Source: Opitutia bacterium (GTDB taxonomy: Bacteria > Verrucomicrobiota > Verrucomicrobiia > Opitutales > Opitutaceae). From it: DNA of 64,000 nucleotides. Shown one piece after another: positions 11,350 through 26,603 of this stretch (positions are counted from its first letter, which is position 1; each line of letters starts with the position of its first letter). The position numbers and the translations under genes are program-made. Location: contig JACRHT010000012.1 in NCBI GenBank assembly GCA_016217545.1, positions 806,001 to 870,000 on the forward strand, given 5' to 3'. A model generated the notes under the pieces. That model was given only the letters and a program-made list of their open reading frames with translations. It was not told the DNA's origin and made no database searches.

Positions 11350-11383
11350 GATACGGCAATTTTTCCCTCCTACCCGCTCTCCC

Positions 11384-15865: not shown

Positions 15866-16771
15866 CTAGATCGCGAAGGCGCGGGTGAGGAGGTTGCGCA
15901 CTTCGCTCGCTTGTCCGCGCAGCCGCAGCACGCGCGGATGCCACGCCAGCGCCATCGCGCGGTCCAGCCGCCGCAAGGCAGGCGCATCGATCACGCGCAC
16001 CTCCGCGGCCGGCAACTCGTGCAGTGCGATCGCAGGCAGCACCGCCCCATGCCCTTTGCCCCGCACGGCGGCGAGGCTCTGAGGGAAGGACTGGCAGGTG
16101 AGACGCGGACGAAGCTCGCCGCCGGCTTCGGACGCGATTTCGCGCAGGCGCTGCGAAAACTGACCGTCGCCGGTCTGCGTCACCAAAGGCACCGAGGTCA
16201 GGGCTTGGCGGAACGAGGCGCGGGGCGCGGGCACGAGGGCTCGCGGCACCACCAGTCGATACGTCAGCGTGCCCAGCGGGGCACTCTCCAGATCGGCGGT
16301 GACGGCATCTGCACGCACCAAACCGAAATCGAGGCGCCCATCCGAGAGCTGGGCAATGATGTCGTGGGTCCGTAGGTTGAAGGTCGAAAAACGCACGCGC
16401 AATTTGGCAACGCGCTCTCTCGGAAGCCGCGGGATCACCAGCCACTGCAAGAGGCTGTCTCCGGCCGCGAGTCGGTAATCGGCCTCTTGCTGTAGGCACT
16501 CGCGGCGCAGGTCGTGCAGCGACTGAAAGTGCGCCCGCGTGATTCCTGCCAGCCGCTCGCCCTCGGGCGAGAGCTTCAGCTCCTTGCCCCGGCGCTGCGT
16601 GAGCGAGACGTTGAAGAACTCGGCGAGTTCGCGCAGCTGGCGGCTGTATTGACTCTGACGCACGGGGTCACCGGGCGCGGCTTGGGCGATGCTGCCGGCC
16701 TCCTGCACCTCGAGGAGCGCGCGCAGCCGATCGAACGAGAGGCCGCGGTTGGCAAAAAGATCCTCAAACAT
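15866..16771 (-). CDS. LysR-family transcriptional regulator
   Basis: This 301-residue protein begins with a LysR-type wHTH (LSFDRLRALLEVQEAGSIAQAAPGDPVRQSQYSRQLRELAEFFNVSL), then two substrate-binding half-domains (LPRERVAKLRVRFSTFNLRTHDIIAQLSDGRLDFGLVRADA). Its target is not evident: no divergently oriented gene starts nearby other than a 53-codon frame and the tRNA array. It lies at the left border of the RNA island and may belong to the core genome. Confidence 0.88.
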   Translation of the reverse strand: MFEDLFANRGLSFDRLRALLEVQEAGSIAQAAPGDPVRQSQYSRQLRELAEFFNVSLTQRRGKELKLSPEGERLAGITRAHFQSLHDLRRECLQQEADYRLAAGDSLLQWLVIPRLPRERVAKLRVRFSTFNLRTHDIIAQLSDGRLDFGLVRADAVTADLESAPLGTLTYRLVVPRALVPAPRASFRQALTSVPLVTQTGDGQFSQRLREIASEAGGELRPRLTCQSFPQSLAAVRGKGHGAVLPAIALHELPAAEVRVIDAPALRRLDRAMALAWHPRVLRLRGQASEVRNLLTRAFAI

Positions 16772-16953
16772 GATTATTAAGTCAGGTATCCTGAGGACGC
16801 TGCTGTGGCAAGGCTCGGCGCGGTCAGGTAAGATGCCGTCACGTTCGATCTGCGGTGCAGGGCGAGATTAGGGAAAATGAAACCACCCCCTTGATTTCGC
16901 ACCGGCTGCGGTCGTTGTAACCTAGTAGAACCAACTCTCGTCACTCACCCGCC

Positions 16954-17115
16954 ATGAAACCCGCGACCAACCATACACTATCCGCCCTCCGGCAGCCGGA
17001 GTGGCGAGGTTCGTGCGCGGTGTTTATCGCGAAGACGACGAACCCCTTGGCGGAACGACTCGGCGATTATCGGCCGAATTCCAGCCAGGAGAACCAAGGA
17101 AGTGGTGTGACCTAG
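16954..17115 (+). CDS. Possible 53-residue peptide
   Basis: The frame starts at ATG 16954 (MKPATNHTLSALRQPEWRGS) and stops at 17115. It is followed 33 bp later by a perfect terminator hairpin, which shows that something is transcribed here on the plus strand. The peptide itself has no recognised motif and no clear Shine-Dalgarno site, so this unit may instead be a small RNA. Confidence 0.3.
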   Translation: MKPATNHTLSALRQPEWRGSCAVFIAKTTNPLAERLGDYRPNSSQENQGSGVT

Positions 17116-17148
17116 CGTCGACGGACTCACTGTAGCCGTCTGCTGCGG

Positions 17149-17176
17149 CCCACTTCCGCCCGGAAGTGGGTTTTTT
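17149..17176 (+). terminator. Rho-independent terminator before the tRNA array
   Basis: A perfect 9-bp stem CCCACTTCC/GGAAGTGGG with loop GCCC is followed by six T (17171-17176). It ends the transcript covering 16954-17115. Confidence 0.9.
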
Positions 17177-17389
17177 CATGCCTGAAAAGGCCGCTTCCGG
17201 AAGCCGAGTGATCAACTCGTTTTTCCAGATTCCGTAAGCGGCTTCATCGCTGAGCCCAGTTCGATCAGCCAACGCCCGCATCAAATCCTGCGGCCATCCA
17301 AACCATACTGCGCAACCGCGCAGTGAGAGAGGGATGACGGTGTGTGTTCTTTTTTGCGAATGCATGAGGCCCAGTAGCCTCGTGCGAAA

Positions 17390-17442
17390 CGTGCGGTGCG
17401 CCCGGATGGGCGTTCAACGGCCTGGGGCCGGCCGCACGTCCA
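17390..17442 (+). tRNA. Truncated tRNA-like element at the array start
   Basis: A perfect 7-bp acceptor (CGTGCGG/CCGCACG), a T discriminator and an encoded CCA enclose only 35 bases, which fold into two short hairpins without a 7-nt anticodon loop. It is spaced from the next tRNA like other array members. It is probably a deletion remnant or a CCA-ended decoy. Confidence 0.4.
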
Positions 17443-17450
17443 ATTTCATG

Positions 17451-17589
17451 CGCCCTGTCGTCTAACACGCCAGGATTCCGGTCTTTCGAGCCGGTGATGC
17501 GGGTGTGACGAAGCGCAGCGGAGATGGGCCAGCCGTAGGCTGGGCTCGTCAGAGCCGAGCGCAGCGAGCCAATCCCGTCGGGGCGACCA
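17451..17589 (+). tRNA. Array tRNA-Glu (TTC) with T-loop insertion
   Basis: Acceptor CGCCCTG/CGGGGCG, anticodon stem CCGGT/GCCGG with loop CTTTCGA, and CCA at 17587-17589. The T-stem GCGGG (17499-17503) pairs with CCCGT (17574-17578) across a 70-nt loop instead of 7, so about 63 nt are inserted in the T-loop. The loop begins TG, as in the whole array. Confidence 0.75.
17506..17570 (+). repeat. Palindromic insertion in the tRNA-Glu T-loop
   Basis: The insert begins TGACGA, has TCGTCA as its inverted partner, and holds a GCCAGCC-GTA-GGCTGG hairpin, then GAGCGCAGCGAGCC. The last motif recurs in the Asp insert and in variant form in the Cys and Tyr inserts. Confidence 0.7.
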
Positions 17590-17696
17590 TTTTGTTCGAA
17601 CCAGCGCTGGTTGTGTTTCCGAGACCAGAATTCGCCGTGCCCCATCGGACTTTTCGGTAGCTTGCCGGCAGCCAGAGCCGGCAGGGGCTAATTTTT
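17590..17696 (+). other. Structured array segment without a recognisable tRNA
   Basis: GCCCC (17639-17643) pairs with GGGGC near 17683-17687 around an inner GCCGGC-AGCCAGA-GCCGGC hairpin, followed by TAATTTTT. This could be a terminator or a degenerate tRNA or Y-type RNA. Confidence 0.35.
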
Positions 17697-17770
17697 GCGC
17701 GCGTGGCGTAGGAGCAACGCAGCGGTCCGCCAGTCCGCAGTCCCGAGTGCGATTCTCGGCGCGCGCACCA
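17697..17770 (+). tRNA. Array tRNA-Gly (GCC)
   Basis: Acceptor GCGCGCG/CGCGCGC, T-arm CCGAG-TGCGATT-CTCGG and encoded CCA. The anticodon loop CCGCCAG has C instead of T33, and the adjacent stem pair is a T-T mismatch. The D-loop reads AGGAGCA with AGC in place of GG. Confidence 0.75.
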
Positions 17771-17776
17771 TCTTGA

Positions 17777-17851
17777 GGAGTTGTGGTGTAACAGCAGCAC
17801 AGCGGACTTTTAATCCGCATGGCGCGGGTGCGAATCCCGCCGGCTCCACCA
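17777..17851 (+). tRNA. Array tRNA-Lys (TTT)
   Basis: Acceptor GGAGTTG/CGGCTCC with two G-T pairs, anticodon stem GCGGA/TCCGC with loop CTTTTAA, T-arm GCGGG-TGCGAAT-CCCGC, discriminator A and CCA. G replaces the conserved T at the second T-loop position. Confidence 0.88.
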
Positions 17852-17856
17852 TTTTG

Positions 17857-17934
17857 CCACCAGTCAGTCATCGAGGGCGGACACGCGGAGAAGTCTTCCG
17901 CTGCCGAGCGACCTGGAACTGCGCTGGCGGCTGA
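17857..17934 (+). tRNA. Degenerate tRNA-like sequence (anticodon AGT)
   Basis: Acceptor GCCACCA/TGGCGGC has one mismatch, the D-stem is GTC/GAC, and the anticodon stem GCGGA/TCCGC has loop GAAGTCT. The T-arm is poor and no CCA is present. This is probably a decayed array member. Confidence 0.35.
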
Positions 17935-18079
17935 CGCGACGTGCCCGGGAGGCCAGCAGGCCGACCGGGCCGCCGCAGGCGGAGCCCTCAGGGCCGAGCG
18001 CGACGAGCGCGAGCCAACAGCGAAGGGACCGGTCTGCAAAACCGGAATCACGCGGGTGCGAGTCCCGCCGTCGCGTCCA
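17935..18079 (+). tRNA. Array tRNA-Cys (GCA) with D-loop insertion
   Basis: Acceptor CGCGACG/CGTCGCG, anticodon stem CCGGT/ACCGG with loop CTGCAAA, T-arm GCGGG-TGCGAGT-CCCGC and CCA. The discriminator is T, as cysteinyl-tRNA synthetases require. About 70 nt are inserted in the D-arm. Confidence 0.8.
17948..18018 (+). repeat. Insertion in the tRNA-Cys D-loop
   Basis: It contains GGGCCGCC-GCA-GGCGGAGCCC and then GAGCGCGACGAGCGCGAGCC, closely matching the Tyr T-loop insert and, more loosely, the Asp insert. The boundaries are approximate. Confidence 0.65.
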
Positions 18080-18085
18080 GACTTT

Positions 18086-18160
18086 GGGGTTGTGGTGCTA
18101 ATAGCAGCACGCCGCGCCCGCAACGCGGAGGAGACGGAGCGTAACCGTCCAGCTCCACCA
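18086..18160 (+). tRNA. Array tRNA-Ala (CGC)
   Basis: Acceptor GGGGTTG/CAGCTCC contains G3-T70, the G3-U70 pair recognised by alanyl-tRNA synthetase. Anticodon stem CCGCG/CGCGG has loop CCCGCAA (C at 33). T-arm GACGG-AGCGTAA-CCGTC, discriminator A, CCA. Confidence 0.8.
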
Positions 18161-18167
18161 TTTGTTC

Positions 18168-18242
18168 AGGTCCTAGATGTCCAAGCGGACGGGTTGGTTT
18201 CCAAGTCCGACCGGGAGGGTGCGAGTCCCTCAGGACCTGCCA
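18168..18242 (+). tRNA. Array tRNA-Trp (CCA)
   Basis: Acceptor AGGTCCT/AGGACCT, T-arm GAGGG-TGCGAGT-CCCTC, discriminator G and CCA. The anticodon loop is best read TTCCAAG with a T-T mismatch closing the stem, giving anticodon CCA. The D-arm GTCC/GGAC has a very short AAGC loop. Confidence 0.7.
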
Positions 18243-18249
18243 ATTTTCC

Positions 18250-18325
18250 GGAGGTCAGGCCGATCTAGTGATGGCGCGTGGCTGAAGCCCACGAGAGCGC
18301 GGCGCGCAACCGCGGGCCTCCACCA
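18250..18325 (+). tRNA. Array tRNA-Phe (GAA)
   Basis: Acceptor GGAGGTC/GGCCTCC, anticodon stem CGTGG/CCACG with loop CTGAAGC, T-arm CGCGG-CGCGCAA-CCGCG, discriminator A and CCA. The second T-loop base is G. Confidence 0.82.
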
Positions 18326-18333
18326 TTTTTTGC

Positions 18334-18475
18334 TGCGGGTAGAACGAGGTTTCCGCCGGGTCTCATAAGCCACGGCGCCGTCGGTGCGATTGACTCGCTC
18401 GCAGACGCGGGCTCGGGCCTGTGGCCCACACCTTCGGTGTGCCGTTTCGCTTCGCTCCACCGACACCCGCACCCA
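18334..18475 (+). tRNA. Array tRNA-Met-like (CAT) with T-loop insertion
   Basis: Acceptor TGCGGGT/ACCCGCA and anticodon loop CTCATAA with an imperfect stem. T-stem GTCGG (18380-18384) pairs with CCGAC (18460-18464) across a 75-nt loop. Discriminator C, CCA. Elongator, initiator or Ile2 identity cannot be decided. Confidence 0.65.
18390..18458 (+). repeat. Insertion in the tRNA-Met T-loop
   Basis: It begins TTGACTCGCTCGC, has a CACACC-TTCG-GGTGTG hairpin and ends TTTCGCTTCGCTCC. Its layout matches the reverse complement of the Glu insert, so the element appears in both orientations. Confidence 0.6.
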
Positions 18476-18483
18476 TTTTATAT

Positions 18484-18559
18484 CGGGGTGTAGCGTAGCA
18501 GCCAACGCGCTCGGCTTGGGACCGAGAGATCGCAGGTGCAAATCCTGTCGCCCCGACCA
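18484..18559 (+). tRNA. Array tRNA-Pro (TGG)
   Basis: Acceptor CGGGGTG/CGCCCCG, anticodon stem CTCGG/CCGAG with loop CTTGGGA, T-arm GCAGG-TGCAAAT-CCTGT, discriminator A and CCA. Confidence 0.85.
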
Positions 18560-18566
18560 ATTCCAT

Positions 18567-18642
18567 CAGGTGCGTGGCCCAGTCAGCGGGGCACCGGCCC
18601 GTGACGCCGGGGAAGCGGGTGCAAATCCCGCCCACCTGACCA
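18567..18642 (+). tRNA. Array tRNA-His (GTG)
   Basis: Acceptor CAGGTGC/CCACCTG with a C-C mismatch at the seventh pair, anticodon stem CCGGC/GCCGG with loop CCGTGAC, T-arm GCGGG-TGCAAAT-CCCGC and CCA. It lacks the usual G-1/C73 of histidine tRNAs. Confidence 0.75.
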
Positions 18643-18648
18643 CCTTTT

Positions 18649-18786
18649 GCTCGCGGAGATGAAGAGTCGACGGAGCGCAGCGAAGGAGGGGCCGCCGTAG
18701 GCGGAGGGCGAAGCCCCGAGCGCAGCGAGCCAATCAGCCCTCCGTCGAAGGGAAGTCAGTCGGTGCGAGTCCGATCGCGAGCGCCA
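18649..18786 (+). tRNA. Array tRNA-Asp (GTC) with D-loop insertion
   Basis: Acceptor GCTCGCG/CGCGAGC, discriminator G (expected for Asp) and CCA. The anticodon loop is CCGTCGA on a CCCT/AGGG stem. T-arm GTCGG-TGCGAGT-CCGAT. About 68 nt interrupt the D-arm. Confidence 0.75.
18668..18735 (+). repeat. Insertion in the tRNA-Asp D-loop
   Basis: It reads GACGGAGCGCAGCGAAGG, then GGGGCCGCC-GTA-GGCGG...GCCCC, then GAGCGCAGCGAGCCAATC. It is the clearest copy of the array insertion element. Confidence 0.7.
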
Positions 18787-18790
18787 GTTT

Positions 18791-18864
18791 GAGCGGGTCG
18801 TCGAACAGCAAGACACCTCTCCCACACAGAGGAGATCACGGCGCGAATCCGTGCCTGCTCACCA
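18791..18864 (+). tRNA. Array tRNA-Val (CAC)
   Basis: Acceptor GAGCGGG/CCTGCTC, anticodon stem CCTCT/AGAGG with loop CCCACAC, T-arm CACGG-CGCGAAT-CCGTG, discriminator A and CCA. The D-loop AACAGCA has AG in place of GG. Confidence 0.82.
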
Positions 18865-18865
18865 T

Positions 18866-18940
18866 TGCCAGGTAGCTCAACAGCAGAGCGGCCGTTTGTT
18901 AAACGGCGAGATGCAGGTGCGAGTCCTGCCTTGGCAGCCA
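18866..18940 (+). tRNA. Array tRNA-Asn (GTT)
   Basis: Acceptor TGCCAGG/CTTGGCA, D-stem GCTC/GAGC with loop AACAGCA, anticodon stem GCCGT/ACGGC with loop TTGTTAA, T-arm GCAGG-TGCGAGT-CCTGC, discriminator G and CCA. This is the cleanest example of the A18/G55 pattern. Confidence 0.9.
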
Positions 18941-18944
18941 ATTT

Positions 18945-19095
18945 CGTCGCCGAGTGAGCGAGTGACCACGCCTGCCCGACATGCAGGAAGGCCAGGTGCG
19001 ATTGACTCGTTTCGCTAACGCGAAACTCGGGCTGCGCCCACACCTGCGGTGTGCCGCTCCGCTCGCGGGGCGAGCTTCGCCTGGGGCGACGACCA
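18945..19095 (+). tRNA. Array tRNA-Val (GAC) with T-loop insertion
   Basis: Acceptor CGTCGCC/GGCGACG, anticodon stem CCTGC/GCAGG with loop CCGACAT. T-stem CCAGG (18992-18996) pairs with CCTGG (19080-19084) across 83 nt. Discriminator A, CCA. Confidence 0.75.
19002..19078 (+). repeat. Insertion in the tRNA-Val T-loop
   Basis: It begins TTGACTCGTTTCGC like the Met insert and shares its CACACC-TGCG-GGTGTG hairpin. Confidence 0.6.
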
Positions 19096-19099
19096 CCAC

Positions 19100-19172
19100 G
19101 GCTCGGTGGCGCAGCAGTGAGCGCAGCTCCCTCATAGGGAGAAGGTTGCGGGTGCGAGTCCCGCCCGAGCCC
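19100..19172 (+). tRNA. Array tRNA-Met-like (CAT), no encoded CCA
   Basis: Acceptor GGCTCGG/CCGAGCC, D-stem GCGC/GCGC, anticodon loop CTCATAG on a CTCC/GGAG stem, T-arm GCGGG-TGCGAGT-CCCGC. The gene runs into CCCTTTTTTT instead of CCA, so it may also mark a transcript end. Confidence 0.75.
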
Positions 19173-19198
19173 CTTTTTTTCGAGACGTGGCAGACAGA

Positions 19199-19275
19199 GT
19201 GCGTAGCACGGAGATGGCGACAGCCCTGAGCAGGGCGAAGGGTGAGCCGAGCGGGCGCCCCTTGGGCGCGAGGCG
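19199..19275 (+). repeat. Insertion in the tRNA-Tyr D-loop
   Basis: It contains CACGGAGATGG, a GCCCTGAGCAGGGC hairpin and a GGGCGCCCCTTGGGCGC hairpin. It resembles the Glu insert at its left part. The boundaries are approximate. Confidence 0.55.
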
Positions 19276-19334
19276 AACAACAGCAATTGCAGCGCGCTGT
19301 AAACGCGCCGCCCGAACGGGCTGCGGAGGTGCGG

Positions 19335-19398
19335 GAGCGTAGCAGCGCGACCGGGCCGCCGCAGGCGGAGCCCGTAGGGCCAAGCGCGATGCGCGAGC
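19335..19398 (+). repeat. Insertion in the tRNA-Tyr T-loop
   Basis: It shares CCGGGCCGCCGCAGGCGGAG and the closing GCGCGAGCCAA with the Cys insert. Confidence 0.65.
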
Positions 19399-19426
19399 CA
19401 ATCCTTCCGTCTCGACCAATTTTCCT

Positions 19427-19513
19427 GCGGATGTGGCGGAACTAGCAGACGCCCCGGCCCGAGATGCCGGTGAACGCAAGTTCGTGAGGGTGCAACTCCC
19501 TCCGTCCGCACCA
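19427..19513 (+). tRNA. Array tRNA-Leu (GAG)
   Basis: Acceptor GCGGATG/CGTCCGC, anticodon stem CCGGC/GCCGG with loop CCGAGAT, long variable arm, T-arm GAGGG-TGCAACT-CCCTC, discriminator A and CCA. The D-loop has TAGC where TGG is usual. Confidence 0.85.
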
Positions 19514-19518
19514 ATTTT

Positions 19519-19605
19519 CGGCGAGTGGTGGAATGCATACACGCGAGTCTCAGAAACTCGTGAGCGTGAAAGCTCGTGCAGGTGCGAATCCTGTCTCGCC
19601 GACCA
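19519..19605 (+). tRNA. Array tRNA-Leu (CAG)
   Basis: Acceptor CGGCGAG/CTCGCCG, anticodon stem CGAGT/ACTCG with loop CTCAGAA, long variable arm, T-arm GCAGG-TGCGAAT-CCTGT, discriminator A and CCA. Confidence 0.87.
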
Positions 19606-19606
19606 A

Positions 19607-19754
19607 TTTCTGGGCAGTGAGGGTGAAGATACTTCGCCTCCAACGATACCCGTGCCCTCCGGCAAGATGGGCTGCAATAAACGAGCGCCCGTTCGAAGTG
19701 CGAACTTCGGACGGGAAGGGCTCCAGGGTGCTTCGCCTGTATTTCTCCCAGAAA
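19607..19754 (+). ncRNA. Y-RNA-like element 1
   Basis: The ends pair: TTTCTGGG (19607-19614) with CCCAGAAA (19747-19754). Just inside lie CAGTGAG on the 5' side and TTCT on the 3' side, the motif pair shared by all four elements here, and ATACTTCG follows. The interior has a 12-bp hairpin CCCGTTCGAAGT/ACTTCGGACGGG (loop GCGA) instead of a clear tRNA domain. The position before the Ro gene supports a Ro-binding Y RNA. Confidence 0.6.
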
Positions 19755-19760
19755 ATATTT

Positions 19761-19893
19761 CGGAGGCAGTGAGCACGCGGATACTTCGGAAAACGCGCTC
19801 GCCGATCCGGCGAGAGTTGTGGGTTCAAGTCCCACTCGGGCCGCTAGGCTCGATGGCGGAATCATCAAACGCTGCGCGCGGTTCTCTCCTCCG
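19761..19893 (+). ncRNA. Y-RNA-like element 2 with permuted tRNA domain
   Basis: The ends CGGAGG (19761-19766) and CCTCCG (19888-19893) pair, with CAGTGAG and CTCT just inside. The body is a circularly permuted tRNA: T-arm GTGGG-TTCAAGT-CCCAC (19819-19835), acceptor 3' strand TCGGGCC, a GCTA cap, acceptor 5' strand GGCTCGA (19847-19853), then a D-like arm. This is the layout of bacterial Y RNAs, where the anticodon stem is replaced by the Ro-binding stem. The T-loop is normal (TTC). Confidence 0.7.
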
Positions 19894-19900
19894 TCCCCTT

Positions 19901-19983
19901 GAGGGTAGTGAAGGCACGGTTCCTTCGGTAAAGCACTCTGTGCTCTGGTTCGACTCCAGATCCCGCGCCGACTTTTCTCCCTC
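19901..19983 (+). ncRNA. Y-RNA-like element 3 (short)
   Basis: GAGGG (19901-19905) pairs with CCCTC (19979-19983), with TAGTGAA and TTCT inside. It holds an AGCA-CTCTG-TGCT hairpin and a T-arm TCTGG-TTCGACT-CCAGA, but no complete D-arm or acceptor. Confidence 0.6.
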
Positions 19984-19990
19984 CTCTTTT

Positions 19991-20122
19991 CGCGGGCAGT
20001 GAGTTCGCAGTTACTTCGAACTGAACTGTCGGCGGTTCAAATCCGCCCGCGCTTTGGCGCGTAGCTCAGTTGGTAGAGCACTCAGGGCCGCAAGGCCTGA
20101 CTGCGCACAATCCTCTCCCGCG
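19991..20122 (+). ncRNA. Y-RNA-like element 4 with permuted tRNA domain
   Basis: The ends CGCGGG and CCCGCG pair, with CAGTGAG and CTCT inside. The body reads T-arm GGCGG-TTCAAAT-CCGCC (20031-20047), acceptor CGCGCTT joined directly to TGGCGCG (20055-20061), then a canonical D-arm GCTC-AGTTGGTA-GAGC and a GNRA hairpin GGCC-GCAA-GGCC. It ends 49 bp before the Ro start, so the two are probably co-transcribed. Confidence 0.72.
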
Positions 20123-20171
20123 ATCCGTCGCCGTGATTCACGGCAAAACCACCAAACCACAAGGAGCCATC

Positions 20172-21611
20172 ATGGCCAAATTCAGCATTCTTCCCTTCCT
20201 GTCGCGCAAGCCGACCGTGCCCAACACGGTGAACTTCGCGGGCGGCGCCGCCTTCGTGCAGCCGGCGAAGCTCGAGCTCGTGTCGCTTCTGCTCACGACG
20301 TTCCTGCAGGACGAATTCTATTGCACGGAAAAGCAGACGGTCGCGCGCGTGCGCGAACTCGTGAACAAGGTCAACGACCCGCGTTTCGTCGCGAAAGCTG
20401 CGCTCTACGTGCGCCACCAGCACGGCATGCGCTCGGTCAGCCACCTCGTGGCCGCCGATCTTGCCAAGTCGGTCAAGGGCGCGCGTTGGACCAAGTCGTT
20501 CTTCGCTCAAGTCGTCCGCCGTCCCGATGACGCCGTCGAGATCCTCGCGTGTTACCTCGGTGCATACGGTCGCCCCGTTCCGAATTCCCTCAAGAAAGGT
20601 CTCGGCGCGGCGCTCGCGCGTTTCGACGAGCACCAGCTCGCGAAATACCGCCGCGACCATGGGACCTTCAAACTCGTCGATGCGGTCAACCTGGTCCGTC
20701 CGCCATCGACGGCGGCACTGAGCAAGCTCGTCAAAGGCGAACTCGCTCCGGCTCAGACGTGGGAAACGCAGCTCACGCAAGCGGGCGAGGCGGAGTCCAG
20801 CGAGCAAGTTGCTGCAGCGAAATCCAACGCCTGGGCCGGTCTGGTGCGCGAGCGCAAGCTCGGCTACCTCGCCCTGCTGCGGAACGTCCGCAACATCCTG
20901 ACGCATGCGCCGGAAGTCGTGGACGAACTCTGCTCGCAACTGGCCGACGAGCGCGCCGTTCGCCGTTCGCTGGTGTTCCCGTTCCAGTTCCTCGCCGCGG
21001 TCGATGTGCTGCAGCAGGGCAACCTGCCGCATGCCTCGCGCGTGATGGAGGCGCTGAACGCGGCCGTGGATCACTCGCTGGTCAACGTGCCGAAATTCGA
21101 AGGCAACACGCTGGTCGCGCTCGACTCGTCGGGCTCGATGGTGGGTCGCCCGCAGAAGATCGGTTCGCTGTTCGCCGCGACGCTGGTGAAGGCGACGGGC
21201 GCCGACCTGATGCTGTTCAGCGATGACGCGCGTTACGTTTCGCTGAATCGTCGCGACACGACGCTGACGGCGGCGGCGAGTATCCCGTTCATCTCCGGCG
21301 GCACGAACTTCCAGGCGATCTTCCAGCGCGCGAACCGCGCCTACGATCGCGTGGTGATCTTGTCGGACATGCAGGGCTGGATCGGCGGCGGTGCGCCGGT
21401 CTCGCAGTTCGCCGAATATCAGCGTCGTCACGCGGTGACGACGCGGGTGTTCAGCTTCGATCTGAAAGGTTACGGCACGATGCAGTTTCCTCAGGAACGC
21501 GTCTACTGCCTGGCCGGTTGGAGCGACCGCGTGTTCGAGCTCATGCAGAAGCTCGACCACGACCCGCACGCCCTCGTGCGCGAAGTCGAAGCGATGGCGC
21601 TCGACGAATGA
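20172..21611 (+). CDS. rsr: Ro60-family RNA-binding protein (TROVE + vWA)
   Basis: The start ATG at 20172 follows AAGGAG at 20161. The 479-residue protein has a helical-repeat TROVE ring (about 15-300: FLQDEFYCTEKQTVARVRELV, ARWTKSFFAQVVRRPDDAVEILACYLGAYGRPVP) and a vWA-like domain with an intact MIDAS D318-S320-S322 (VALDSSGSM). Ro proteins bind misfolded RNA ends in the ring and Y RNAs on its outer surface, and can work with exonucleases. Four Y-RNA-like genes lie directly upstream, and the RtcB ligase gene is downstream on the same strand, as in the Salmonella rsr-yrlBA-rtcBA locus. Confidence 0.95.
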   Translation: MAKFSILPFLSRKPTVPNTVNFAGGAAFVQPAKLELVSLLLTTFLQDEFYCTEKQTVARVRELVNKVNDPRFVAKAALYVRHQHGMRSVSHLVAADLAKSVKGARWTKSFFAQVVRRPDDAVEILACYLGAYGRPVPNSLKKGLGAALARFDEHQLAKYRRDHGTFKLVDAVNLVRPPSTAALSKLVKGELAPAQTWETQLTQAGEAESSEQVAAAKSNAWAGLVRERKLGYLALLRNVRNILTHAPEVVDELCSQLADERAVRRSLVFPFQFLAAVDVLQQGNLPHASRVMEALNAAVDHSLVNVPKFEGNTLVALDSSGSMVGRPQKIGSLFAATLVKATGADLMLFSDDARYVSLNRRDTTLTAAASIPFISGGTNFQAIFQRANRAYDRVVILSDMQGWIGGGAPVSQFAEYQRRHAVTTRVFSFDLKGYGTMQFPQERVYCLAGWSDRVFELMQKLDHDPHALVREVEAMALDE

Positions 21612-21615
21612 CTCT

Positions 21616-21645
21616 GCGGGACGGGCTGCATTCCCGTCCCGCTTT
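21616..21645 (+). terminator. Terminator or attenuator after the Ro gene
   Basis: A perfect 10-bp stem GCGGGACGGG/CCCGTCCCGC (loop CTGCATT) is followed by TTTCTCTC. It separates the Ro gene from the downstream tRNAs and could make their expression conditional on readthrough. Confidence 0.75.
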
Positions 21646-21647
21646 CT

Positions 21648-21722
21648 CTCCCTGTGGTGAAAAAGCCATCACACGGCCGTGCGAAGGCCGAGGTCCAGGT
21701 GCAAGTCCTGGCAGGGGGACCA
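21648..21722 (+). tRNA. Array tRNA-Arg (GCG)
   Basis: Acceptor CTCCCTG/CAGGGGG, anticodon stem CGGCC/GGCCG with loop GTGCGAA, T-arm CCAGG-TGCAAGT-CCTGG, discriminator A and CCA. An unmodified GCG anticodon is unusual, because most bacteria read CGN with A34 converted to inosine. Confidence 0.82.
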
Positions 21723-21730
21723 ATTTCAAT

Positions 21731-21805
21731 CCTCGCGTGGGGAAACATAGATCACCCCACGCTTCGGACGTGGTGTTGCGGGTGAGAGTCCTGCCGCGAG
21801 GTCCA
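21731..21805 (+). tRNA. Array tRNA-Arg (TCG)
   Basis: Acceptor CCTCGCG/CGCGAGG, anticodon stem CCACG/CGTGG with loop CTTCGGA, T-arm GCGGG-TGAGAGT-CCTGC, discriminator T and CCA. Confidence 0.82.
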
Positions 21806-21881
21806 CTCCGCGTGGCCGAGTAGCTCAGGCTTCCGCCTTCTAAGCGGAACGACGCAGGTGCAACTCCTGCCGCGGGGACCA
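21806..21881 (+). tRNA. Array tRNA-Arg (TCT)
   Basis: It abuts the preceding CCA. Acceptor CTCCGCG/CGCGGGG, anticodon stem TCCGC/GCGGA with loop CTTCTAA, T-arm GCAGG-TGCAACT-CCTGC, discriminator A and CCA. Confidence 0.87.
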
Positions 21882-21883
21882 AC

Positions 21884-21970
21884 GGAGAGTGCCGAGGACA
21901 GTTCCTCAAGCGGTCCCGAAAACCGTGGTGCCGCTCAGCGACAATGGTGCGATGCCATCACTCTCCGCCA
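21884..21970 (+). tRNA. Array tRNA-Ser (CGA)
   Basis: Acceptor GGAGAGT/ACTCTCC, D-arm GAGG/CCTC, anticodon loop CCCGAAA on GCGGT/ACCGT, long variable arm, T-arm ATGG-TGCGATG-CCAT, discriminator G (expected for Ser) and CCA. Confidence 0.82.
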
Positions 21971-21974
21971 CTTT

Positions 21975-22048
21975 CCGCTCGTAGCTCAAAAGCAGAGCAG
22001 CCGACCGATAATCGGCCGACCTTGGCGCGATACCAAGCGGGCGGACCA
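21975..22048 (+). tRNA. Array tRNA-Ile (GAT)
   Basis: Acceptor CCGCTCG/CGGGCGG, D-stem GCTC/GAGC with loop AAAAGCA, anticodon stem GCCGA/TCGGC with loop CCGATAA, T-arm CTTGG-CGCGATA-CCAAG, discriminator A and CCA. Confidence 0.87.
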
Positions 22049-22052
22049 ATTG

Positions 22053-22135
22053 GGAGAAGTAACTCCGGAAGCCGGAGGACACGGTGCTAACGTGCGCGGC
22101 CCGATCGGGCTGAGGGGCGGGACCTCACTTCTCCG
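22053..22135 (+). tRNA. Array tRNA-Ser (GCT), no encoded CCA
   Basis: Acceptor GGAGAAG/CTTCTCC, D-arm CTCC/GGAG, anticodon loop GTGCTAA on CACG/CGTG, variable hairpin GCCC-GATC-GGGC, T-arm TGAGG-GGCGGGA-CCTCA, discriminator G. The bases after it are CAC. Confidence 0.78.
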
Positions 22136-22138
22136 CAC

Positions 22139-22212
22139 TGCCGGGTCGTCTAACAGCAGGACCACGGGCTTTGAACCCGTCGATGCACGTGCGAGTCGTG
22201 CCCCGGCAGCCA
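22139..22212 (+). tRNA. Array tRNA-Gln (TTG)
   Basis: Acceptor TGCCGGG/CCCGGCA, anticodon stem ACGGG/CCCGT with loop CTTTGAA, T-arm GCACG-TGCGAGT-CGTGC, discriminator G (expected for Gln) and CCA. D-loop AACAGCA. Confidence 0.87.
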
Positions 22213-22216
22213 ATTT

Positions 22217-22291
22217 GCTCTTCACGCATAGTCAGCGATGCAGCGGTCCCGTAAACCGCAAAGGCCGGCGCAACTCCGGCGAAGAGCTCCA
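22217..22291 (+). tRNA. Array tRNA-Thr (CGT), last of the array
   Basis: Acceptor GCTCTTC/GAAGAGC, anticodon stem GCGGT/ACCGC with loop CCCGTAA, T-arm GCCGG-CGCAACT-CCGGC, discriminator T and CCA, followed by TTTTTCTTT. Confidence 0.85.
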
Positions 22292-22364
22292 TTTTTCTTT
22301 CGCAAAAGAACACACACCGCGCCGGCGCAGCTGCGTCGGCGGCCGAAGCAGGAGATCCCTTTCC

Positions 22365-23000
22365 ATGAACATCTCCCTTCTCGACAAACCGATTGTCCTC
22401 TCGCTCAACCGCGCGTGGCAGGTCATCGGCCATCGCACCGTCAAACAAGCGCTCGTCGCGCTGAATGGCGGCGGTGACGGCCTGCCGCCGGCGCTCGGCC
22501 TCGATATCGCTTACCCGAAACTCGAGGACGGCGGCTGGAACTTCGACCGCCCGCTCTACCTGACTCCGCTCGCGTGGGGCGACTGGACGAAGCTGCCCGT
22601 GCGCGATTTCGACTTCGCCGTGCACACGCCGCGCCAAGCGATCCGTGTGCCGACCGTCATCATCGCCACGCAGTTCGACCGGATGCCCGTGCGCATGCCG
22701 CGCGTGACGCGCCAAGCGATTTTCGAACGCGACGGCGGCGTCTGCCAATACACCGGCGAATACGTCGGCAAAGGTGGAGGCAATCTCGACCACGTGATCC
22801 CGCGTGACCGCGGCGGCCGCGACTCGTTCGAAAACCTCGTCTGGGCCAAACGCGAAATCAACTCACGCAAAGCCAACCGCCTGCCGCACGAGGCCGGCCT
22901 GCAACTCATCCGGCGCCCGCGCGCTCCGCTTCCGCTTCCCGCGGTGGCGGCAATTCGCGAGCCCAAGCATCCCGACTGGCGCCACTTCCTCGCTCTCTGA
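22365..23000 (+). CDS. HNH endonuclease-family protein
   Basis: ATG 22365 follows AGGAG at about 22350; the large open frame further upstream is only tRNA sequence. The 211-residue protein has a C-terminal HNH fold: VCQYTGEYVGKGGGNLDHVIPRDRGGR (the His of LDHVIP), DSFENLVWAKREINSRKANR (the Asn and final metal residues). The N-terminal 110 residues (LDKPIVLSLNRAWQVIGHRTVKQALVAL) match the leader found in many small stand-alone HNH proteins. Most HNH enzymes cut DNA; whether this one acts on RNA or DNA is unknown. It is the first of four plus-strand genes after the array. Confidence 0.88.
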   Translation: MNISLLDKPIVLSLNRAWQVIGHRTVKQALVALNGGGDGLPPALGLDIAYPKLEDGGWNFDRPLYLTPLAWGDWTKLPVRDFDFAVHTPRQAIRVPTVIIATQFDRMPVRMPRVTRQAIFERDGGVCQYTGEYVGKGGGNLDHVIPRDRGGRDSFENLVWAKREINSRKANRLPHEAGLQLIRRPRAPLPLPAVAAIREPKHPDWRHFLAL

Positions 23001-23073
23001 TCGCACGCGGGTGGGGAAGCGGTCCGGCGGCCCACCGAACTCCTTCCCGATCCGTGTGCGATCTTTCACTCCC

Positions 23074-23775
23074 ATGAACCCGCTTGCCCAAAGCCCCGTC
23101 GCCGTCGTCGACCTCCTCGACATCGTCGACACCGCGCTCGCGACCGTCTCGCGCCGCGTGCCGCTGCACGTCGCGCGCGACGACCTCGCGTCGGCCGGCA
23201 AGCTCGCGCTCATCGCAGCCTTCGGCCAAGTCGACGGCTCCGAGGACGACATCCGCGCTTACTGCTTCGTGCGCGTGCGCGGTGCGATGCTCGACGAACT
23301 GCGCCGCCTCGATTCGGTGTCCCGTCGTTCGCGTCGCGCCGCCCGTCTCGTGGCGCGCGCCCAAGCCCAGCTCGCCGGCGAATTGGGCCGCGAGGCGACA
23401 CTCGACGAACTCGCGATCGCCACTGGCCTTGAAATCCGCGCGATTGCTGCCGCGCGCACCACGCTCGCGGCGGACGCCGGTGGCGACGAGTTCGCCTGGG
23501 ACGACCTGGCGGACGCCGATACGCCCTGTCCGGCGACGAGTGTCGAACTCGCCGATCTGCGCGCCTCCGTCGTCGCGGCGCTCGATCGCCTGCCGGCGAA
23601 CCAGTCGCTCGCGCTGCGCCTCTATTACCTCGAGGACGCGACGCTCGACGACATCGCCGCGCGCCTGAACGTCTCCCGCGAACGCGCCCGCCAAGTGCGC
23701 GAAGCCGGCGAGAAACGCCTGCGCGCCGACTTCGTCATTCTCTCCCTCTGGCAAACCCTCCTCAACGAAACCTAA
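23074..23775 (+). CDS. Sigma-70-family RNA polymerase sigma factor (FliA/SigB-type)
   Basis: The start ATG at 23074 gives 233 residues. Region 2 is visible as DLASAGKLALIAAFGQVD...IRAYCFVRVRGAMLDELRRLDSVSRRSRR, region 3 as ELGREATLDELAIATGLEI, and region 4 as ALDRLPANQSLALRLYYLEDATLDDIAARLNVSRERARQVREAGEKRL. It is a group 3 alternative sigma factor without region 1. It is 73 bp after the HNH gene and presumably directs transcription of the island itself. In Salmonella the related RtcB locus is driven by sigma-54 with RtcR, so this would be a different control mode. Confidence 0.9.
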   Translation: MNPLAQSPVAVVDLLDIVDTALATVSRRVPLHVARDDLASAGKLALIAAFGQVDGSEDDIRAYCFVRVRGAMLDELRRLDSVSRRSRRAARLVARAQAQLAGELGREATLDELAIATGLEIRAIAAARTTLAADAGGDEFAWDDLADADTPCPATSVELADLRASVVAALDRLPANQSLALRLYYLEDATLDDIAARLNVSRERARQVREAGEKRLRADFVILSLWQTLLNET

Positions 23776-23781
23776 ACCTCC

Positions 23782-23815
23782 GCGCGCCGTCCCGCACGGG
23801 GCGGCGCGCCCTCTC
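23782..23815 (+). terminator. Hairpin between sigma factor and AAA genes
   Basis: GCGCGCC and GGCGCGC enclose an inner CCCG/CGGG, followed by CTCTCTT. It may terminate or attenuate before the AAA gene. Confidence 0.55.
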
Positions 23816-23908
23816 TTATGAGCCAACTCTCCATTCGCCCGAATCCACTCCCTTTGAAGCTGGTGCGCCTGAAGCGCTCGCGCGTGCGCACCTCTCTCCG
23901 TCAATACC

Positions 23909-25042
23909 GTGAAAATCTTCCGCCCAAAACCAAGCACGCCCGCGTCGGTGTATCACCACCGTTCGCTCTGTAGCGTTGACTATCCACTTCCCGCTCTCGA
24001 GCGCGGTTGGCTGCATGGCCGCCAAGCCAAACTCGCCTGGGACATGAACCGCATCGCCGCGCACATGGGTGAACGCTGCTGGCTCAGTTTCTACGACGGC
24101 GACTCCAAGCGCGCCGCTGATCCGGCTTCGCCCGCACTCGTCGCCGTCGCCGGCTTCTGGCCGGGCGGCGGTTTTGTCGAGGTCGTGCCGCAGAACGGAA
24201 ACACCTTGGAGGATCACCCGCGCCACGTGCTCGCCGCCTATGCCGCGACCGCGGTGGAGTGTGATCGGCTGTTTGCGGAGCTGCTGGCCGGTTTCATCCA
24301 CGCGGACGCCGTGCGCGAGGGTGTGCCACGCATCGGCATCCTCAACAACGCCTATGGTTCACTCGAGGTTCAGCGCATCACGATCTCGGAAGAGCAAATC
24401 GTGGACCGCGATCTTGTGGAAATCTACTACGGCAACGGAGCCGCCGCGTGGACGGACGCTTGGGTCGCGGAACTCGGCAAACGCCGCTACGGCCTCTCAG
24501 TGCTCACGGGCGCGCCAGGCACCGGCAAGACCACGCTGCTGCGATCCCTCGCCTCCTGGCTGAGCGATACGCACATGTTCTATTTCATGCCCGCTGCGCG
24601 CTTCATGCAGGTCGAGTCCGGCGATATCGTGAACTTCTGGGCCGATGAAAACCGCAGCTCCAAGCTGCGAAAGATCCTCATTCTGGAGGACGCCGAAAGC
24701 GTCCTGCTGCGCCGGGCCGACGACAATCGCGAGAAAGTCGCCTCCCTGCTGAATCTCACCGACGGCATGATGGGCGACGCACTGGGCCTTCACGTGGTTT
24801 GCACGCTCAATTGCGGGCTCGCCGATCTCGATCCCGCGCTGTTGCGCCCCGGCCGCCTGGCCGCGCAGCGCGAGTTCGGCCCGCTTCCGCTCGATCAGGC
24901 CCGCCGTCTCGCCGCGCGACTCCATCGTCCGCTGCCCGAAAAGCCGTCCACGTTGGCCGAGATCATCCACGGCCAACCGGCGCCCGTGCCGGCACCGCTG
25001 CCGCCGCGGCGTCTCGGTTTTCACTCCCACCTTACTGCCTAA
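23909..25042 (+). CDS. AAA-family ATPase
   Basis: The start is GTG 23909 (MKIFRPKPSTPASVYHHRSL). The 377-residue protein has a novel N-terminal part (1-190) and an AAA domain: Walker A GAPGTGKTT (201-209), Walker B ILILEDAE (257-264), sensor-1 in CTLNCGLADLDPALLRPGR with the RPGR arginine-finger region. It resembles BCS1/CDC48-type single-AAA remodelling proteins. Located 22 bp before rtcB, it may remodel or load RNA-protein complexes, or regulate the ligase; the role is inferred from linkage only. Confidence 0.88.
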   Translation: MKIFRPKPSTPASVYHHRSLCSVDYPLPALERGWLHGRQAKLAWDMNRIAAHMGERCWLSFYDGDSKRAADPASPALVAVAGFWPGGGFVEVVPQNGNTLEDHPRHVLAAYAATAVECDRLFAELLAGFIHADAVREGVPRIGILNNAYGSLEVQRITISEEQIVDRDLVEIYYGNGAAAWTDAWVAELGKRRYGLSVLTGAPGTGKTTLLRSLASWLSDTHMFYFMPAARFMQVESGDIVNFWADENRSSKLRKILILEDAESVLLRRADDNREKVASLLNLTDGMMGDALGLHVVCTLNCGLADLDPALLRPGRLAAQREFGPLPLDQARRLAARLHRPLPEKPSTLAEIIHGQPAPVPAPLPPRRLGFHSHLTA

Positions 25043-25064
25043 ATCCACATAACGCATTCATCCC

Positions 25065-26603
25065 ATGAACATGGAAATCAAAGCTCGTGATCTCGTCGCT
25101 GCCGGCTGGCACGAAGGCCGCCGCATGGGCCCGGCGCTGCGCCGCGCCCGCGACCTTGAGTCGTCGGGGCTCGCGCGCGCGGATGTCCTCGCGCAGCTCG
25201 AAAAGGAGTTTCCGAAGCAGCTGCCCGTCATCCTGCCGCGCTACGAGCCGGCGCCGCTCGCGGAAGCGATCGACGTCGAAACGGAGATCGAACAGGAGAA
25301 CGTCGCGGCTGCCCGTGCGCGCATGCACGAGCTCCTGCATTCGCCCGTGATTCAGCGCGGCGTCATCATGCCAGACACGTGTCCGGCGGGCGGTGGTCGC
25401 GCGACGATTCCCGTTGGCGGTGCCATCGAGGTCGCCAATGCGATCATTCCGGGCGCCCACTCGGCGGACATCTGCTGCTCGATGTTCGCGTCCTTCTTCC
25501 CCGCGAACCACCCGGTCGGCGAAATGATGGATCATCTTCAGAAGGTGACGCATTTCGGCGCCGGCGGCCGTCCGCGCGGCCATCAGTGGTCGTCGCCAGT
25601 CATCGAGGAGCCGGTCTGGGACAATCCGTTCCTGACCGGTCTGACGAGCCGCGCGCGCGATTTCCTCGGGACGCAGGGCGACGGCAACCACTTCGCTTAC
25701 TTCGGGCGCATCGAGTTCACCGAGGCGCAGCGCGCCGCGATCGAGGCTGCCGGCTACACCGAGCTGTCCGATTGGATCACGCGCCGCGACGGGAAGTTCA
25801 ACGTGCTCGTCACGCACCACGGTTCGCGCGGCCTCGGCGCCGACGTCTACAAGCGCGGCCAGGTTGCCGCGCGCAAATGGTGCGACGAAAACGCCAAGGA
25901 CATCCCCGATGCCGCCGCGTGGCTGCCGGGCGACTCACCCGAGGGCCTCGCCTATTGGGACGCCCTGCAATACATCGGCCGCTGGACGCGCGAAAACCAC
26001 GCTCTCATCCACGAGGCGCTGCTGCGCCGTCTCGGCCAGCGCGCGCTCGTGCAGATCGGCAACGAGCACAACTTCGTCTGGAAGCGCGGCGATATCTTCC
26101 TGCATGGCAAGGGTGCGACGCCCGCGTGGCGCGACCGCGATGGTCGTCCGCTGCTGGGCCTGATCCCGCTCAACATGGCGAAGGAAATCCTCCTCGTCCT
26201 CGGCGCGGACAACCGCGACTACCTCTCGTTCTGCCCACACGGGGCCGGCCGCAATCAGTCGCGCTCGGCGATGCTGCGTCCCTTCAAGGATGTGGAGGGA
26301 CGCATCGAGCCGGCCCGCGTGCAGCAGGTGATGGCGGAGCTGACCGCGGGCCTCGACATCCGTTGGTTCTGCGGCGCACCGGACCTTTCCGAGTCGCCCA
26401 TCGGCTACAAGGACGCCGCGAAGGTGAAGGCGCAGATCGCGCGCTACGGTCTCGCCCATCTCGTCGGCGAAATCCAGCCGCTCGGCTGTATCATGGCCGG
26501 CGAGGCTCCCGAACCGCCGTGGGTTCGCGCCCGCCGTGAGAAGCAGGCGCGCCACCGCGCGGAGCGTCGCGAGGGCGCGCAGGAGGCGAAGGATCCGAGT
26601 TGA
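25065..26603 (+). CDS. rtcB: RtcB RNA ligase
   Basis: The 512-residue protein has the RtcB fold residues in order: HSADICCSM (132-140, metal Asp/Cys), GTQGDGNHF (N208, H209), VTHHGSRGLG (H251), IGNEHNF (H335), KGATPA, and HGAGRNQSRS with H392 as the guanylylated histidine. RtcB joins 2',3'-cyclic phosphate or 3'-phosphate ends to 5'-OH ends, healing cleaved tRNA or joining spliced exons. Usual Cys neighbours read DIGCGM; here DICCSM marks a divergent subfamily. It ends the island operon. No archease or RtcA gene is seen nearby. Confidence 0.96.
   Translation: MNMEIKARDLVAAGWHEGRRMGPALRRARDLESSGLARADVLAQLEKEFPKQLPVILPRYEPAPLAEAIDVETEIEQENVAAARARMHELLHSPVIQRGVIMPDTCPAGGGRATIPVGGAIEVANAIIPGAHSADICCSMFASFFPANHPVGEMMDHLQKVTHFGAGGRPRGHQWSSPVIEEPVWDNPFLTGLTSRARDFLGTQGDGNHFAYFGRIEFTEAQRAAIEAAGYTELSDWITRRDGKFNVLVTHHGSRGLGADVYKRGQVAARKWCDENAKDIPDAAAWLPGDSPEGLAYWDALQYIGRWTRENHALIHEALLRRLGQRALVQIGNEHNFVWKRGDIFLHGKGATPAWRDRDGRPLLGLIPLNMAKEILLVLGADNRDYLSFCPHGAGRNQSRSAMLRPFKDVEGRIEPARVQQVMAELTAGLDIRWFCGAPDLSESPIGYKDAAKVKAQIARYGLAHLVGEIQPLGCIMAGEAPEPPWVRARREKQARHRAERREGAQEAKDPS

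Follow-up and report, generated by a model that had tools for sequence, protein, structure and literature searches.

An array of 26 tRNA-like genes with an altered elbow in an Opitutaceae genome, a candidate backup tRNA set

Why should a bacterium that possesses its normal tRNA genes carry a second, dense collection of them? The question is raised by a locus of an Opitutia bacterium (Opitutaceae, Verrucomicrobiota; GenBank assembly GCA_016217545.1, contig JACRHT010000012.1) in which 26 tRNA-like genes, all on the + strand between 17451 and 22291, have anticodons covering all 20 amino acids. Positions are those of the window, the 64,000-nucleotide stretch analysed here (G000:C12:806001-870000 of a 5.09-Mb genome, 99.9% complete). 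The array is real, and nearly all of its tRNAs differ from normal ones at the elbow, the site where the D- and T-loops meet. To judge from their sequences, they may form a silent, stress-inducible backup tRNA set, a reading that we regard as possible, if somewhat short of probable.

All 26 anticodons listed by an earlier note on this DNA, made from the letters alone, are present. ARAGORN called 11 of the 26 genes, and Rfam RF00005, run on 16500-23500, found 16 array tRNAs at E<=10, 15 of them above the gathering score. A custom scanner that tolerates inserts recovered 23 at a score of at least 25, a cut at which neither the reverse strands of 10 loci (192,286 bases) nor 20 block shuffles gave a match. 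At a looser cut Met 18334 was mis-parsed as Ser (17.3) and three false matches appeared within the Ro gene (14.0-17.0); this Met gene, Met 19100 and Ser-GCT 22051 were located by orthology and visual inspection. From 53 tRNAs of two related loci (L231 and L232), with zero window sequence, we built a covariance model, R2; it recovered 21 array members at E<1e-3, its E-values being rough. Genome-wide, where 150 of 3,302 first-look candidates were scored, the top 13 R2 matches (61-78 bits) were all array members, and the top normal tRNA reached 60.4 bits. The covariance-model check proposed in the earlier note thus came out in favour of the array.

As had also been noted, nearly all of the genes (24 of 26) encode CCA, the exceptions being Met 19100 and Ser-GCT. 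The description of all 26 as full-length has to be narrowed, because six carry inserts, seven in total, in their loops. Genome-wide, RF00005 gave 56 matches, and since 43 of these lie outside the array, it is an addition to the normal tRNAs. The proposed private and divergent character of the set was borne out as well: the 16 window tRNAs compared have a mean identity of 93% to their best array orthologue versus 60% to the nearest normal tRNA, among those sampled, that serves the same amino acid.

The strongest feature of the array, its altered elbow, had gone unremarked. Pseudouridine-55 has been termed universally conserved and pairs with G18 in the standard elbow, and the G19-C56 face is the contact of the ribosome, RNase P and others (PMC4810234). 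Our sample comprised 507 array tRNA calls from 28 loci, leaving out L244 (two calls) and L075 (one call); these represent 478 distinct sequences, 448 of them with uninterrupted loops. The related loci, from Opitutaceae and kin (Verrucomicrobiota), were fetched by a close Ro protein or by clustered array T-arms. Among the 448, 434 have G at position 55 and 14 have T; the T55 calls include stray normal tRNAs in the fetched stretches (e.g. L236 Val, L250 Glu). D-loop positions 18-19, assigned by a text rule and not from structure, read AG in 382 and GG, as in normal tRNAs, in 30. The combination A18 with G55 occurs 381 times, G18 with G55 20 times, G18 with T55 10 times and A18 with T55 once; C56 is retained in 426. 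All 28 sampled normal tRNAs of the source genome have T55. The G55 state extends to L073 (Verrucomicrobiaceae) and L074 (Verrucomicrobiota), where it is found in 16 of 17 uninterrupted calls. As their sequences read, the array tRNAs alter the 18-55 contact and keep the G19-C56 face. One Met tRNA of another array (L249 8684-8758, genome G123) has a normal elbow (T55, GG) and an initiator-like A11:U24.

Of 700 stem pairs compared inside groups of orthologues, 451 have changed on both sides with pairing preserved. Positions 54 and 58 covary (mutual information 0.893 versus 0.016 when shuffled; T:A 310, A:T 42, G:G 37), and the values are 0.577 for 15-48 and 0.290 for 8-14, compared with 0.194, 0.088 and 0.046 for three control pairs; 26-44 (0.053) lies inside the control range, and all these values are inflated by the relatedness of the sequences. 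Known charging signals are kept as well. G3:U70 is found in 17 of 17 Ala tRNAs versus 2 of 461 others, G73 in all Asn (15), Asp (13) and Trp (12) members, U1:A72 in Gln (25/25), U73 in Cys (16/17) and C1:G72 in Pro (22/24), while a long variable arm is present in Leu (42/46), Tyr (16/16) and Ser (10/10). The Ser and C33 counts exclude four distinct sequences (L065, L231, L236, L237) that the scanner called Ser-GGA and that were re-read as Pro-CGG. Because the stems, several tertiary pairs and the charging signals are conserved, the array tRNAs are probably charged.

The same evidence bears on the proposal that the RNAs are decoys: bait, one RNA per anticodon, that draws tRNA-cleaving toxins or phage factors, is not meant for the ribosome and would be processed by RtcB or Ro once cut. 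Such a role would suit the alteration of the elbow contact and of part of the U33 positions, as well as the tolerance of inserts in D-, anticodon and T-loops, stem mismatches being alike in the 30 interrupted (3.2%) and the 448 uninterrupted tRNAs of all loci (2.8%); a competitive-inhibitor role has been proposed for the tRNA-like part of YrlA RNA (PMC7790460). However, G3:U70, U1:A72 and the discriminator bases, all of them kept, would be superfluous in bait for an anticodon nuclease, and C33 would spoil such bait for enzymes that read U33. We consider decoys an unlikely explanation.

Array Pro and His tRNAs have the T-loop UGCAAAU, which also occurs in one staphylococcal non-proteinogenic tRNA. 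The array might in principle supply aminoacyl donors outside the ribosome, charged tRNAs that are withheld from EF-Tu and serve peptide or cell-wall chemistry, as non-proteinogenic tRNA-Gly species of Staphylococcus aureus escape EF-Tu (PMC9976931). Such chemistry would not need all 20 amino acids with several isoacceptors each, and none of the nine proteins scanned with Pfam belongs to a transferase-like family; of the explanations weighed here we give this one the least credence.

The gene order in the window is a LysR-type regulator and a small open reading frame (ORF), both on the - strand, then the array with Y RNAs and Ro, followed by HNH, sigma factor, AAA and RtcB genes; HNH starts 73 bases past the last tRNA. 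In tblastn searches with the window proteins, the commonest partner in the 28 array loci, window included, is HNH (24), then LysR (19), then RtcB and sigma (17 each); AAA, found beside the array in 4 of 28 loci, was discarded as a constant partner. Of the HNH-less loci, L072, L242 and L249 end within or just past the array, and L250 does not. The catalytic motifs of RtcB (HGSRGLG, EH, HGAGR) are recognizable and align to solved RtcB.

The earlier note had linked the array with Ro and RtcB. Both are at the locus, but Ro does not define the system. In the family, 24 of 252 genomes have at least four matches to the array T-arm pattern (a reversed control pattern never gave more than three), and TROVE, the domain of Ro, is present in 12 of the 24 and absent from 12, which ruled out Ro as the system core. 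Three of the TROVE-less genomes (G166, G188, G193) are less than 90% complete; two others, G003 (a single contig) and G074, are both 100% complete and have 33 scanner calls each. Where present, Ro and the Y-RNA motif sit inside the array, before the Arg tRNAs. All 17 close-TROVE loci (at least 57% identity) with the upstream region covered have the motif, as do two of five Bacteroidota loci that are more distant; the 17 fetched array stretches lacking TROVE yielded none. Because TROVE is split 12 to 12 and the Y-RNA motif tracks it, Ro with Y RNA is an optional insertion; the core is the array with HNH, often accompanied by LysR, sigma and RtcB.

The set is conserved in more than one genus. 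Fuller loci carry about 26-38 tRNAs per array, and 32-34 scanner calls were made in the larger relatives L065, L069, L231, L232, L239 and L240; Ereboglobus sp. PH5-10, which is probably an isolate, has a short array with three calls (L071). The array described here sits on a 1.23-Mb contig, and G003 and G064, both single-contig genomes, carry arrays too. When 288 genomes were sampled across the phylum, the sole other family with at least five matches on a contig was f11, of the same class (G448, 10 matches in all versus 3 for the control; G463, 7 versus 1). Match pairs within 600 bases were also seen in G430 (f11) and in G445 and G469 (f7), with G445 giving 6 control matches versus 4. When viruses were scanned with the G55 pattern, nearly all of the matches listed were single, as chance would give. 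HNH homologues lie in or beside tRNA arrays in 5 of 12 records fetched from 84 matched. The other seven (Bosea, S. meliloti, Rhodococcus, Persicobacter, Acaryochloris, LR756511, RHph_TM21B) have 0-1 tRNA within 9 kb, so that HNH does not guarantee an array.

This distribution could be that of a spreading tRNA-array cassette that owes its maintenance chiefly to its HNH endonuclease, brings the host little benefit and has its altered elbow as a founder trait. Occurrence in the family is patchy (24 of 252 genomes), no partner is commoner than HNH, and HNH (67-82% identical within the family; 51.9% in L246) and RtcB (70-87%) are better conserved than LysR (48-62%, about 50%). Two genomes, G053 and G175, carry two arrays each, and a homing endonuclease amplifies phage tRNA genes (PMC13096335). 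Compensatory stem changes, identity elements and the recurrent linkage with sigma, LysR and RtcB nevertheless point to selection on the RNAs, and we think a cassette of this kind quite improbable.

How would a backup set work? The normal tRNA pool would be cut or starved by a tRNA-cleaving toxin, a phage or an anti-phage nuclease, and the LysR regulator, the sigma factor or both would turn the locus on. The array tRNAs would be charged by the normal synthetases and used by the ribosome; enzymes reading the usual D-/T-loop contact, its modifications or U33 would spare them, so that translation could continue. RtcB may rejoin cut RNAs, HNH may hold the array together or reshuffle it, like homing enzymes in phage tRNA clusters, and Ro with Y RNAs, where present, may sort or degrade damaged tRNAs. 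Charging, ribosomal use and resistance to cleavage are properties that we infer for these tRNAs. Support for the backup set comes from the conservation of G55, the covariation in stems and tertiary pairs, the charging signals, the near-complete decoding by fuller arrays, the retained G19-C56, the gene linkage and the Anabaena and phage tRNA precedents discussed below. A bolder version, which we find rather doubtful, is that Verrucomicrobia possess a second, near-complete A18/G55 tRNA population that the normal synthetases can charge and that is unseen by enzymes reading the standard elbow, and to which translation is switched over when the normal tRNAs are destroyed. On this view a tRNase reading the universal elbow would hit every tRNA, so that only a full set could answer it.

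A number of observations weigh against a backup set. The 18-55 pair itself has a mutual information of 0.092, within the range of the control pairs (0.05-0.19), and shows no covariation because it hardly varies. C1:G72 in Tyr (16/16) and Glu (23/30) tRNAs is unlike the usual bacterial synthetase signals, as are A73 in His (16/16) and the T at -1 of this tRNA in eight of nine arrays. C33, which is poor for decoding, replaces U33 in 76 of 474 array tRNAs; it is nearly fixed in Leu-GAG (12/12) and Val-GAC (11/12), and frequent in His (11/16) and Val-TAC (7/11). Leucylation in E. coli relies on G18:U55 (PMC9976931). For 11 of the 28 array loci no RtcB was found nearby, and at L237 and L239 it is absent despite coverage of several kilobases of downstream DNA. 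The inconstancy of AAA and RtcB leaves our estimate of the backup set unchanged, because HNH, RtcB, sigma and LysR each occur in at least 17 of the 28 loci.

On the same side stands the reduced decoding capacity of the window copy. Under strict wobble its set covers 43 of 61 codons; the other 18, left unread, account for 14.1% of the 3,776 codons in nine ORFs (a first set of 12 ORFs, with 16.1% unread for the window and 11.2% for L231, contained doubtful ORFs and was replaced). The L240 set (34 scanner tRNAs and four Ser tRNAs read by eye in gaps) reads 57 of 61 codons, leaving 2.4% unread, and that of L231, with a few members read by eye, reads 54 of 61. Because of the 43 codons read and the six interrupted genes, the window copy cannot sustain translation alone. 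Thus, the suggestion of the earlier note that the array could run translation on its own fails for the window copy and nearly holds for the fullest array.

Finally, the loop inserts in six of the 26 window genes (Glu, Cys, Met 18334, Asp, Val-GAC and Tyr) should block function unless they are removed. They measure about 60-95 nucleotides and lie in the D- or T-loop; in Met 18334 the acceptor and T-stem are complementary and the anticodon stem is poor. An element of about 62 nucleotides explains five of the seven (nhmmer). Its copies, L065 10024-10084 and 10348-10410 among them, occupy D-, anticodon and T-loops; they are inserted in either direction and frequently at GA/A, and a few lie between genes. 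Its presence varies among orthologues: Cys has it in the window and L065 and lacks it in L066, whereas Asp has it in the window and L066 and lacks it in L065. In eight whole genomes, with 150 first-look candidates scored per genome out of thousands, 31 of 33 matches fell on array contigs or regions (G083:C358 among them), which rules out genome-wide repeats; the remaining two, both weak, come from G003, where a normal tRNA-Ser lies about 100 bases away. Ordinary RNA introns are unlikely because the inserts lie in both orientations. If the inserts were removed with the help of the neighbouring RtcB, this might represent protein-type tRNA splicing in bacteria.

The inserts also invite the view that the window array is a decaying relic, a dying copy without present function, and the reduced set and the two members without CCA would fit it. 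Yet the stems of interrupted members are, over all loci, about as intact as those of the others, and the 93% mean identity of the 16 window tRNAs to their best orthologues also speaks against it; we hold a relic to be very unlikely.

Related systems are known. Mycobacteria, their phages and plasmids carry 20-30 clustered tRNAs for 19-20 amino acids, with HNH as the most widespread companion (PMC5966550, PMC12803027). Our locus resembles these units in its dense, near-complete tRNA cluster with HNH, which is homologous to the HNH of M. avium pS2b. It differs in its G55/A18, as U55 is found in 27 of 27 tRNAs there (L251, GG in 26 of 27 D-arms), in its RtcB and Ro, not annotated in the pS2b stretch examined, and in its location on a chromosome-size contig. 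The trn operon of Anabaena, with 26 tRNAs, is silent, is induced by translation inhibitors, improves survival and shares a repressor with rtcB, HNH and AAA genes (TrcR regulon, PMC10272220). The number of tRNAs and the presence of rtcB, HNH and AAA genes are common to both systems; however, the rtcB named in that source (all3526) is chromosomal, and LysR and sigma are found here. A Nostoc plasmid (L252) has 24 tRNAs directly after a homologous HNH and, unlike our array, U55 in 22 of 23. Synechococcus phage S-CBWM1 and Tunturiibacter phage Tunturi_5 likewise combine a large tRNA set with a homologous HNH, but are viral and have a normal elbow (T55 in 36/36 and 24/25). In the stretch examined, Tunturi_5 (L259) has 25 tRNAs, a tRNA ligase and an S6-modifying enzyme, a gene content resembling the Anabaena regulon. 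Over the five HNH-linked arrays elsewhere (M. avium, Nostoc and Tsukamurella plasmids and the two phages), T55 is found in 130 of 132 readable T-arms, which rules out G55 as a shared trait of all HNH-linked arrays.

Ro, Y RNA and RtcB also occur together in the rsr-yrlBA-rtcBA repair operon of Salmonella (PMC7790460). That operon is RtcR-regulated and includes RtcA, and no tRNA array is named in the part of the source available; at our locus Ro is optional, and neither RtcA nor the sigma-54 activator RtcR was among the proteins of 15866-26603 (Pfam scan). Phage tRNAs with anticodon-loop mutations are predicted to escape host tRNases (PMC10264068); candidate changes of this kind in our arrays are C33 and G55, in the numbers given above. 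Large HNH-linked tRNA arrays are thus already known, and the array is a variant of them. Its altered elbow, gene neighbourhood, optional Ro insertion and loop element appear in none of the titles and abstract openings searched, although the Ro and RNA-repair literature may mention them. Within those titles and abstract openings, the claim that this is not an established system holds for the combination of the full set with RtcB and Ro; near-complete HNH-linked arrays are known from mycobacteria, as is the 26-tRNA operon of Anabaena.

Table 1. Features of the array locus in window coordinates
Feature	Position	Strand	Basis
LysR-type regulator, divergent from array	15866..16771	-	Pfam HTH_1 and LysR_substrate; homologue in 19/28 array loci
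Small ORF; may be small protein or conserved promoter DNA	17024..17365	-	tblastn in many related loci
tRNA-Glu(TTC), T-loop interrupted, insert core 17509-17571	17451..17589	+	scanner; R2 E=0.03 on 5' part
Structured non-tRNA RNA between Glu and Gly	17590..17696	+	conserved in relatives, 6-sequence fold
tRNA-Gly(GCC), C33	17697..17770	+	ARAGORN, Rfam, scanner, R2
tRNA-Lys(TTT)	17777..17851	+	ARAGORN, Rfam, scanner, R2
Structured RNA between Lys and Cys	17852..17934	+	conserved in relatives, 8-sequence fold
tRNA-Cys(GCA), D-loop interrupted, U73 retained	17935..18079	+	scanner, R2
tRNA-Ala(CGC), G3:U70 retained, C33	18086..18160	+	Rfam, scanner, R2
tRNA-Trp(CCA)	18168..18242	+	scanner, R2 2e-11
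tRNA-Phe(GAA)	18250..18325	+	scanner, R2 2.7e-14
tRNA-Met(CAT), T-loop interrupted, element in opposite orientation (core 18409-18458)	18334..18475	+	by eye; nhmmer minus-strand match
tRNA-Pro(TGG)	18484..18559	+	ARAGORN, Rfam, scanner, R2
tRNA-His(GTG), C33	18567..18642	+	ARAGORN, Rfam, scanner, R2
tRNA-Asp(GTC), D-loop interrupted (insert 18671-18732), C33	18649..18786	+	scanner, R2
tRNA-Val(CAC), C33	18791..18864	+	Rfam, scanner, R2
tRNA-Asn(GTT)	18866..18940	+	ARAGORN, Rfam, scanner, R2
tRNA-Val(GAC), T-loop interrupted, C33	18945..19095	+	scanner, R2 1.4e-4
tRNA-Met(CAT), no encoded CCA	19100..19173	+	ARAGORN, Rfam, R2
tRNA-Tyr(GTA), D- and T-loop both interrupted (T-loop insert 19334-19393)	19181..19418	+	scanner; R2 weak, E=0.071
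tRNA-Leu(GAG), C33	19427..19513	+	ARAGORN, Rfam, scanner, R2
tRNA-Leu(CAG)	19519..19605	+	ARAGORN, Rfam, scanner, R2
Four Y-RNA-like elements	19606..20110	+	motif starts 19614, 19766, 19904, 19996; last is YrlA match 20005-20109
Ro/Rsr protein (TROVE domain)	20172..21611	+	PF05731 1.3e-17
tRNA-Arg(GCG)	21648..21722	+	ARAGORN, Rfam, scanner, R2
tRNA-Arg(TCG)	21731..21805	+	Rfam, scanner, R2
tRNA-Arg(TCT)	21806..21881	+	ARAGORN, Rfam, scanner, R2
tRNA-Ser(CGA), C33	21884..21970	+	scanner; R2 E=0.014
tRNA-Ile(GAT), C33	21975..22048	+	Rfam, scanner, R2
tRNA-Ser(GCT), no full CCA	22051..22135	+	by eye, orthologues in relatives
tRNA-Gln(TTG)	22139..22212	+	ARAGORN, Rfam, scanner, R2
tRNA-Thr(CGT), C33	22217..22291	+	scanner, R2 7.2e-18
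HNH endonuclease	22365..23000	+	PF13395 4.5e-7; in 24/28 array loci
Sigma-70-family factor, nearest FliA/WhiG (below cut-off)	23074..23775	+	in 17/28 array loci
AAA ATPase	23909..25042	+	PF00004 6.3e-12; beside array in 4/28 loci, window included
RtcB RNA ligase	25065..26603	+	PF01139 2.5e-30; in 17/28 array loci

The locus holds other RNAs and small genes besides the tRNAs (Table 1). The four Y-RNA-like elements are not tRNAs; the YrlA match of the last one scores 40.7 bits with Rfam RF02553, under the gathering score of 69. The RNA between Glu and Gly folds with 24 pairs, four showing change on both sides, and that between Lys and Cys with 16 pairs, five of them so changed; neither has a fitting Rfam match at E<=10. 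Only part of the small ORF upstream of the array is conserved (34-63% identity across 41-107 amino acids), and it has no match in an NCBIfam scan. A hydrophobic ORF of 30-31 amino acids lies within the array region of relatives (L065 5555, L231 9516, L240 8600, L241 9245), followed in the sequences read by a hairpin-like GC-rich repeat; it was not found among ATG-started + strand ORFs of window 16701-22400. In NCBIfam the HNH protein most resembles the HNH portions of Cas9d, Cas9 and IscB, at scores far under the cut-offs. About 5 kb upstream of the array, a CapP-like metallopeptidase gene (11782-12675, PADLOC 2e-18) is preceded by an ORF that by eye resembles a helix-turn-helix protein; the pair (11318-12675) is of a type of regulators accompanying defence systems.

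Sets of up to about 38 tRNAs that have abandoned the 18-55 contact constitute a natural experiment on the purpose of the elbow, and dozens of tRNAs sharing one defined elbow change become available. The arrays of Opitutaceae and their kin would also allow a direct test of whether full tRNA sets serve as emergency replacements in an arms race over tRNA cleavage.

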